From positions 1 to 38,517 of the forward strand of contig JAQUIV010000006.1 in NCBI GenBank assembly GCA_028681275.1: 38,517 nt of DNA, read 5' to 3'. Made by a program: the position numbers and the translations under genes. Below, one piece after another: positions 35,281-37,333 of the stretch. Positions within the stretch are counted from its first letter, which is position 1; each line of letters starts with the position of its first letter. This DNA comes from Aliarcobacter sp. Lineage in GTDB: Bacteria; Campylobacterota; Campylobacteria; Campylobacterales; Arcobacteraceae. Below the pieces are notes generated by a model. The model had not been told where the DNA came from. It saw only the letters and a list, made by a program, of their open reading frames with translations, and did not search any database.

Positions 35281-35300
35281 ACCAATTTAATAGGTGATAA
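35281..35300 (+). promoter_or_regulatory. Putative operator copy 1
   Basis: ACCAATTTAATAGGTGATAA, starting 3 nt after the -10; shared with copy 2 at 35948-35967 with one mismatch. Confidence 0.65.
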
Positions 35301-35302
35301 TT

Positions 35303-35764
35303 ATGAAAATTTCAAAAAAAACAGATTATGCATTAAGAGCTTTATTTGCAATTGCAGAGTTAAAAGAGGGTTCTATCTCAATTAGAGAATTATCTGAAAA
35401 TACAGATGTACCAAGAAGATTTCTTGAAAATATTATGCTTGAAATGAACAAAGCAGGTTGGGTTAGAAGTATTCCTGGAAGATATGGTGGATATGCACTA
35501 GCAAGAGGTTCACATGAGATTACTTTAGGTGAAGTTATTAGATACTTTGAAGGTATGATAGCTATGATTTCTTGTGTATCAGTTTCTAGTTATGAGCCAT
35601 GTAGTCAAGAGGGGAAATGTTATTTTAGAAGGGTGTTTTTAAATATTAGAAATTTAACTGCACAAATTCTCGATAGAACAACAATTGCCTCTTGTTTATC
35701 ACAAGAACCAATAACAAAAGATGATATATTTAAAGAAGAGTTTATAGGTGGTTTAGGTATTTAA
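35303..35764 (+). CDS. Rrf2-family transcriptional regulator with three-Cys cluster (track start GTG 35294; ATG 35303 preferred)
   Basis: 'MKISKKTDYALRALFAIAELKEGSISIRELSENTDVPRRFLENIMLEMNKAGWVRSIPGRYGGYAL', then C91-x8-C100-x5-C106. AGGTGA lies 5 nt before ATG 35303. Confidence 0.92.
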   Translation: MKISKKTDYALRALFAIAELKEGSISIRELSENTDVPRRFLENIMLEMNKAGWVRSIPGRYGGYALARGSHEITLGEVIRYFEGMIAMISCVSVSSYEPCSQEGKCYFRRVFLNIRNLTAQILDRTTIASCLSQEPITKDDIFKEEFIGGLGI

Positions 35765-35916: not shown

Positions 35917-35944
35917 TTGACAAATAAAAAAATGCTATTATAAT
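35917..35944 (+). promoter_or_regulatory. Sigma70-type promoter of the sulfate-binding-protein transcript
   Basis: TTGACA(35917-35922)-16 nt-TATAAT(35939-35944). Confidence 0.75.
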
Positions 35945-35947
35945 TTC

Positions 35948-35967
35948 ACCAATTTAGTAGGTGATAA
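35948..35967 (+). promoter_or_regulatory. Putative operator copy 2
   Basis: ACCAATTTAGTAGGTGATAA, starting 3 nt after the -10; 19/20 identical to 35281-35300. Confidence 0.65.
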
Positions 35968-36009
35968 ATAAAAACCTATTTTGTACATATCAAATAAGAA
36001 GGATTTCAA

Positions 36010-36042
36010 ATGATGTGCGACATGTGTAAAAAGTTGTATTAA
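36010..36042 (+). CDS. Leader ORF, MMCDMCKKLY
   Basis: ATG ATG TGC GAC ATG TGT AAA AAG TTG TAT TAA, with GAAGGA 6 nt upstream; lies between promoter and sulfate-binding-protein gene. Confidence 0.6.
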   Translation: MMCDMCKKLY

Positions 36043-36132
36043 TTGGAAAAAAGAAAAAAGGTGAGATTTTTTTAAATCTTTAAATTATCACACACTTAGT
36101 GTATATTAAATAAAAAAGAAAGAGAAAATAAA

Positions 36133-37212
36133 ATGAAAAAAGTATTTAAAAGTTTAGTTTTAGCAGCATTATTAGTTCCAGCAGTAGGTTTCTCAGCAGA
36201 TAGTTATGATTCAAAAGCAGAAGCAGCAAAAAAATCAGTAGACTTATTAAATGTATCTTATGACCCAACAAGAGAGTTATATGAAGCATACAACAAATCA
36301 TTTGCAACATATTGGAAAAATAAAACAGGTCAAGAAGTAACTGTAAAACAATCACATGGTGGTTCTGGAAAACAAGCACGAGCAGTAATCGATGGATTAG
36401 GTGCAGATGTTGTTACTTTAGCTTTAGCTTATGATATTGATGTAATTACTGAAAAAGCAAAACTGTTTGCACCTGATTGGCAAAAAAAATTAGCAAATAA
36501 TTCATCACCATATACTTCAACTATCGTATTTTTAGTTAGAAAAGGAAATCCAAAAGGGATTAAAGATTGGAATGATTTAGTAAAAGAGGGTGTTGAAGTT
36601 ATTACTCCAAATCCAAAAACATCAGGTGGTGCTAGATGGAATTATTTAGCAGCTTATGCATATTCACTTAAACAAGATTTAAGAGATTTAACAAAAATTG
36701 ATAGAAACTCAGACAAATTTAAAGCAGCAGATGCAAAAGCTTTAGAGTTTGTAAAAAAATTATTTAAAAATGTTCCAGTTCTTGACTCAGGAGCAAGAGG
36801 TTCAACAAATACATTTGTTCAAAGACAAATTGGAGATGTTTTACTTGCTTGGGAAAATGAGGCTTATTTAGCACTTAATGAGTTAGGAAAAGGTGAATAT
36901 GAAATTGTAACTCCATCTGTATCAATTTTAGCAGAACCACCAGTTGCAGTTGTGGAAGAAAATGCAAAAAAACATGGAACTTTAGATGTATCTAAAGCAT
37001 ATTTAGAAGCATTATATTCACCAGAGGGTCAAAAATTAGCAGCTAAAAACTATTATAGACCATATAAACCAGAACTAGCTGATAAAGAAGATATTGCAAG
37101 ATTTAAAAACCTTGAATTAGTAAAAATCAATGATGTATTTGTTGATTGGCAAACAGCTCAAAAAACACACTTTGATGATGGTGGAACATTCGATACTATT
37201 TATTCTAAATAG
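36133..37212 (+). CDS. Periplasmic sulfate/thiosulfate-binding protein (Sbp/CysP-like)
   Basis: Signal peptide '[15 protein letters not shown]'; '[20 protein letters not shown]', '[32 protein letters not shown]', '[23 protein letters not shown]'. Confidence 0.94.
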
Positions 37213-37333
37213 AAAATTAGTTTAAAGGAAATAAGGTGAGTCTTATTTTTTAATATAACACAAAAGAAGAAATTGACTTTTTAGTGGCTAAAATTAAAGA
37301 GTTTAAATATAGTCATTTTAGGGAGAGATAATT

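Follow-up and report, generated by a model that had tools for sequence, protein, structure and literature searches.

Gene Context of the uORF

The window, that is, the whole stretch of 38,517 nucleotides of Aliarcobacter sp. DNA that was analysed, carries on its + strand a gene for an Rrf2-family transcriptional regulator (35303-35764, Pfam Rrf2 E=1.3e-34) and sbp, the gene of a periplasmic sulfate-type solute-binding protein (36133-37212, Pfam SBP_bac_11 E=4.6e-32) whose specificity for sulfate is assigned from homology. The start of the Rrf2 gene was taken as ATG, with a GTG at 35294 as a possible alternative. The downstream neighbour of sbp is a flavocytochrome c sulfide dehydrogenase-like gene, and between these two lies a GGTGAGTCTTATTTTTTAATATAACAC stretch (37233-37262) that resembles the element GGTGAGATTTTTTTAAATCT of the sbp leader.

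A short upstream ORF (uORF) encoding MMCDMCKKLY lies on the + strand at 36010-36042 (ATG ATG TGC GAC ATG TGT AAA AAG TTG TAT TAA). The earlier note had placed it 90 nt before sbp, behind the Shine-Dalgarno sequence (SD) GAAGGA (35998-36003) with a 6-nt spacer, and all of this agrees with what we found. The uORF begins 65 nt past the -10 box of a promoter, P1 (TTGACA - 16 nt - TATAAT, 35917-35944, + strand), which matches the consensus at 12/12 positions and whose TATAAT ends at 35944. An operator-like dyad, O1 (TTCACC-AATTTAGTA-GGTGA, 35945-35964, + strand), overlaps the predicted start point and is found in every leader with a TTGACA-type promoter. With the Rrf2 gene adjacent, control of sbp by Rrf2 is plausible, O1 being its putative binding site; the Rrf2 gene adjoins the uORF on the upstream side in several further genomes too.

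Scanning the 38.5-kb window for intergenic ATG ORFs of 6-25 codons with an SD gave the uORF alone, apart from the ORF that starts at its own second ATG. When its leader was shuffled by mononucleotides, only 0.2% of 20,000 shuffles contained an SD-preceded short ATG ORF with at least two Cys codons. An Rfam scan of the window gave 0 matches at gathering score to known structured RNA families.

Conservation and Distribution

Among 104 Arcobacteraceae genomes surveyed, an Sbp homologue was present in 24, of which 23 belong to the genus of the window (Aliarcobacter by named records) and one to another genus. All 24 carry an SD followed by an ATGATG-NNN-NNN-ATG ORF before sbp, the uORF start lying 109-123 nt from the sbp ATG. 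The same cassette precedes sbp in a Sulfurospirillum-type genome (L037), and named records that contain it are Aliarcobacter/Arcobacter and one Sulfurospirillum MAG. Five more copies stand before sulfonate-type binding-protein (ssuA-like) genes, including one in a genome that has no sbp (G005), where the uORF is found before the sulfonate-type gene only. As the earlier note had predicted for an alignment across relatives, the start, the codons and the stop are kept while the flanks and the peptide tail drift.

The exact codon string ATGATGTGYGAYATGTGY was then looked for in 397 genomes of the phylum, giving 17 matches in 13 genomes, all of them preceding sbp or a sulfonate-type binding-protein gene, the latter as second copies; the reversed pattern, used as a control, gave 0 matches in the same 397 genomes. 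This comparison establishes the uORF as a conserved feature of sulfur uptake loci. In a third family, one genome (L121, around 1335, reverse complement) encodes MMMDMCKTK behind a strong SD, 109 nt before sbp, at a locus that contains neither the promoter/operator-like motif O2, which lies between uORF and sbp in the window, nor the GGTGAG element. What these loci share is therefore the codons and not the DNA motifs. The sbp leaders of family f6 (L113, L114, L124, and L125) have no such uORF. Matches to MMCxM or MMYxM in family f2 were set aside as chance, since they sit in unrelated, mostly coding sequence, and a Cys-rich uORF MAQMCSDCYCQYNMYFK before the sbp of one further genome (G108) was not counted as support because it has no relative in 120 genomes.

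Codon Pattern of the uORF

The 30 cassettes show a pattern expected of codons. AAGG precedes the ATG by 6-8 nt in 30/30 cassettes, all 30 have C or T as the third base of codons 3, 4, and 6, and the third-base changes at these wobble sites are all synonymous C/T changes. Mapped on the Sbp tree, codons 2-6 have undergone 8 changes at the three wobble sites and 12 at the other 12 sites together. Beyond codon 6 the tail comprises 2-14 residues that are not conserved in sequence and ends in TAA or TAG. Given the conserved start, SD, pyrimidine third bases and nearby stop next to a variable tail, the uORF is very likely translated. The rare codon TGC (8/95 Cys codons in the window) is chosen at codon 3 in 22/27 cases and the rare GAC (71/684 Asp codons in the window) at codon 4 in 18/26 cases, the rows being related, so that these counts are not a clean statistic. 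This use of rare codons recalls the rare Leu codons reported for LeuL (PMC3847290).

The earlier note had proposed a cysteine-responsive leader. A sulfur-codon ORF does stand at sulfate and sulfonate uptake genes; cysteine as the signal is not established, since Met2 and Met5 are better conserved than the two Cys. On the Sbp tree no change was found at any site of Met codons 2 and 5, whereas two events removed Cys3 and four removed Cys6, and one of the two Cys is missing in 7/30 peptides. The signal may therefore be methionine as much as cysteine. In its strongest form this becomes a variant of our preferred explanation, in which methionine alone is sensed and the Cys codons are secondary, as the MMMDMC peptide of L121 and the MMYQMR peptide encoded before a methionine transporter gene in C. 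jejuni would also suggest. We consider this variant rather unlikely, for at least one Cys is retained in 30/30 peptides, the sbp leaders of Sulfurospirillum are rich in Cys, and the sulfur brought in by the target genes goes to Cys first.

Leader RNA Structure

Downstream of the uORF lies a conserved element, GGTGAGATTTTTTTAAATCT, which contains a weak hairpin GAGAUU/AAUCUU (36060-36079, + strand); the AGATTT-TTTT-AAATCT hairpin of the earlier note was located within it, at 36064-36079. The T-tract misaligns the arms in the MAFFT alignment, so pair counts made on it were discarded and the arms were compared directly: the six pairs are present in 30/30 cassettes and the variants are compatible with RNA pairing. 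The GGTGAG at the beginning of the element (36060-36065) is nearly invariant across all 30 cassettes, is confined to them within the family and resembles the GGTGA half of O1.

A conserved SD and MMx-x-Mx ORF with codons of the regulated amino acid, a short leader and a sulfur uptake target are what one would expect of classical cysteine attenuation, in which stalling at the Cys codons would let an antiterminator form before sbp in place of a terminator. The other parts of such a switch were looked for and none was found. There is no intrinsic terminator on the + strand between uORF and sbp, and the 6-bp AU hairpin, being weak, with its T-tract inside the loop and no U-tract after it, is not terminator-like. 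The whole leader shows no excess folding stability relative to shuffled sequence (mean z = -0.28, 30 leaders), and the uORF does not coevolve with the downstream segment as an antiterminator pairing would require, nor is there any other conserved alternative pairing. With no terminator, no excess folding and no uORF:O2 coevolution, no switch structure is in hand, and terminator/antiterminator attenuation is not borne out. We regard it as very improbable; in the absence of an intrinsic terminator, control through Rho or at the level of translation is the likelier option.

It could also be asked whether the conservation reflects a DNA site (a third copy of the operator) or an RNA structure, the ORF being incidental. 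In some uORFs, ATGTGTGATA is the reverse complement of TATCACACAT in O2, and the energy of the uORF-leader duplex appears low when compared with mononucleotide shuffles. Much of this excess is lost when dinucleotide shuffles are the reference (median fraction 0.31), and the permutation fraction for uORF:O2 coevolution was 0.17, with no species-specific coevolution, so that uORF:O2 RNA pairing was rejected. The exclusively synonymous third-base changes and the recurrence of ORF and SD in L121, a genome without O2, make such an origin of the conservation hard to credit.

Promoters and Operator-Like Motifs

A second promoter/operator-like motif, O2 (TCACACACTTAGTGTATATTA, 36088-36108, + strand), lies between the uORF and sbp, after the element GGTGAGATTTTTTTAAATCT; its form in the leaders is TCACxCATTTAGTGTATATTA, and it stands 37-45 nt before the sbp ATG. 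A regulon scan by pattern, covering 8 genomes, found the same motif in other Aliarcobacter genomes 37-41 nt before a cysT-like permease gene and a second ssuA-like gene (ssuA2), both of which have no uORF. At the upstream position, 16/25 sbp leaders have the TTGACA type of P1 and the remaining 9 have an O2-like motif in its place, 37-38 nt before the uORF ATG, where it occupies the promoter position of the uORF. The tandem arrangement of motifs is thus evident from the comparison. Because O2 precedes both sulfur uptake genes without a uORF and, in nine leaders, the uORF itself, the copy that separates the uORF from sbp is most reasonably taken to be a promoter/operator of the latter gene, P2. 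As P2 lies downstream of the uORF, sbp mRNA made from it would be without the uORF, only P1 transcripts would carry it, and a portion of the sbp mRNA probably lacks it altogether.

This arrangement is what one would expect if the uORF were a micro-gene in its own right, transcribed from a sulfur-controlled promoter of its own and encoding a free MMCxMC peptide or a short RNA that is trans-acting or a by-product, while sbp would be expressed from P2. The spacing of the O2-like motif to the uORF ATG in the nine leaders (37-38 nt) is similar to that before sbp and before cysT and ssuA2, and peTrpL provides a precedent for a leader peptide that acts in trans (PMC7298713). The conservation of the first six codons only, with a tail that varies in length as well as in sequence, does not fit a free peptide well, and the uORF is invariably found 109-125 nt before a sulfur uptake gene, which suggests action in cis. 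A separate micro-gene is therefore, in our estimate, unlikely.

Two further observations concern the region between these promoters. In TTGACA-type leaders, including that of the window (35945-35987), a hairpin can form immediately before the uORF SD, and the changes in its arms between species are compensated (GGUGAU/AUCACC against GAUGAU/AUCAUC). At two loci with a cysT-like gene (L160 and L171, minus strand), a P1-type promoter (TTGACA...TATAAT and TTCACC) runs directly into a perfect intrinsic terminator, TAGATGATTAATTTAATCATCTATTTTTTT. Beyond this terminator stands an O2-type promoter, 37-38 nt from the ATG of the cysT-like gene. The terminator has the same position, between the P1-type promoter and P2, as the hairpin upstream of the uORF SD, and since the cysT P1-type transcript would end within ~40 nt, it may correspond to a tiny RNA or to an attenuator.

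Comparison with Known Leader Peptides

The closest relative in design is CJsORF19 (MMYQMR) of C. jejuni, which was found by Ribo-seq/TIS upstream of Cj0772c, a gene of metQ/NlpA type, and which its authors propose to be a leader peptide (PMC11955535). We located the ORF in two C. jejuni-group loci (L150 and L151), before an NlpA-type gene. Like the Aliarcobacter uORF, it is a tiny, unannotated MMxxM ORF with an SD, ~115 nt before the gene of a sulfur-nutrient binding protein. It differs in having no Cys, in preceding a methionine transporter rather than sulfate or sulfonate uptake genes, and in being known from Ribo-seq, its regulation being putative. A strong hairpin follows its stop in L150 and L151, whereas Aliarcobacter has the weak 6-bp AU hairpin only. 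With the MMxxM start, the SD and the binding-protein gene in common, the peptide of Aliarcobacter resembles a variant of the same design that combines Met with Cys. In L150 and L151, the uORF sequence ATCAGAT can pair with ATCTGA past the stop, and ATCTGACTATCA can alternatively pair with the downstream TGATAGTCAGA; a switch in the CJsORF19 leader is thus possible.

An unrelated uORF, MKS...HVFCLMCC-stop, was found in Sulfurospirillum-type sbp leaders in eight genomes (L111, L112, and L115-L120). It has a perfect SD and lies near the predicted 5' end of the transcript, and one Cys is replaced in two of the eight genomes. The presence of two unrelated sulfur-codon peptides at sbp points to selection for reading the supply of sulfur amino acids.

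Cys leader peptides without a terminator have been predicted in Actinobacteria (PMC1262725), and polycysteine ORFs of mycobacteria are reported to respond to cysteine (Canestrari 2020, as cited in PMC9094748 and PMC13236596). The mycobacterial ORFs share with the Aliarcobacter uORF the Cys codons in a short ORF before sulfur genes and the lack of a conserved terminator; they are leaderless and have Cys runs near the stop. The Aliarcobacter peptides, in contrast, have two isolated Cys by the start, single residues at codons 3 and 6 of 8-20, with Met mixed in; initiation is not leaderless, the SD being present in every cassette, and a second promoter stands before the target. Within the same phylum, the leader peptides LeuL, TrpL, and MetL of C. 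jejuni also carry codons of an amino acid, Met codons in the case of MetL. Their transcripts are reported to end shortly past the uORF stop (PMC3847290), whereas the Aliarcobacter leader has no such terminator, and no Cys leader was described among them. The uORF thus resembles an amino-acid leader peptide yet conforms neither to the classical attenuator nor to the mycobacterial type.

Proposed Function

The uORF is probably regulatory, and it is likely an undescribed sulfur-amino-acid leader peptide. We favour, with a probability of roughly 55%, the explanation that it is a real translated leader peptide on the P1 transcript, whose Met and Cys codons sense sulfur amino acids and which acts in cis. 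In this model, the P1 transcript would carry the uORF, and P2, with the same operator-like motif, would yield sbp mRNA without it. Ribosomes on the Met and Cys codons (MM-C-x-M-C) would gauge how well the cell is supplied with sulfur amino acids and, when Cys and/or Met is short, the share of the P1 transcript that yields the sulfate- or sulfonate-binding protein would be adjusted in cis, so that the uORF would modulate one of the two sbp outputs. We infer translation, stalling, the signal, the direction of control and the controlled step; it speaks against this explanation that the regulatory codons are codons 2-6, beside the start, and most attenuators have theirs near the stop. The proposal of the earlier note that the uORF tunes sulfate uptake is thus retained in part: a leader that is very likely translated is tied to uptake genes, no switch structure was found, and bypass from P2 would limit its reach.

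A literature search that reached few subscription papers found no published description of a Met/Cys leader in Aliarcobacter. In the literature found, cysteine leader peptides are from Actinobacteria, and the work on C. jejuni comprises LeuL, TrpL, MetL, and the tentative MMYQMR only. To these can be added the Met/Cys leader conserved at sulfate and sulfonate uptake genes of Aliarcobacter and another Cys leader, unrelated to it, at sbp of Sulfurospirillum. More tentatively, the Campylobacterota might use micro-uORFs of one family, with the design MMxxM(C/R), together with unrelated ones ending in Cys, as general Met and Cys sensors at the genes for sulfate, sulfonate, and methionine uptake; these sensors would work with no intrinsic terminator and beside a second promoter free of the uORF. 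The Aliarcobacter leader offers a small testable system for whether sulfur supply would be read via charged tRNA-Cys, tRNA-Met, or both, and for how a terminator-less leader may act beside a second promoter.
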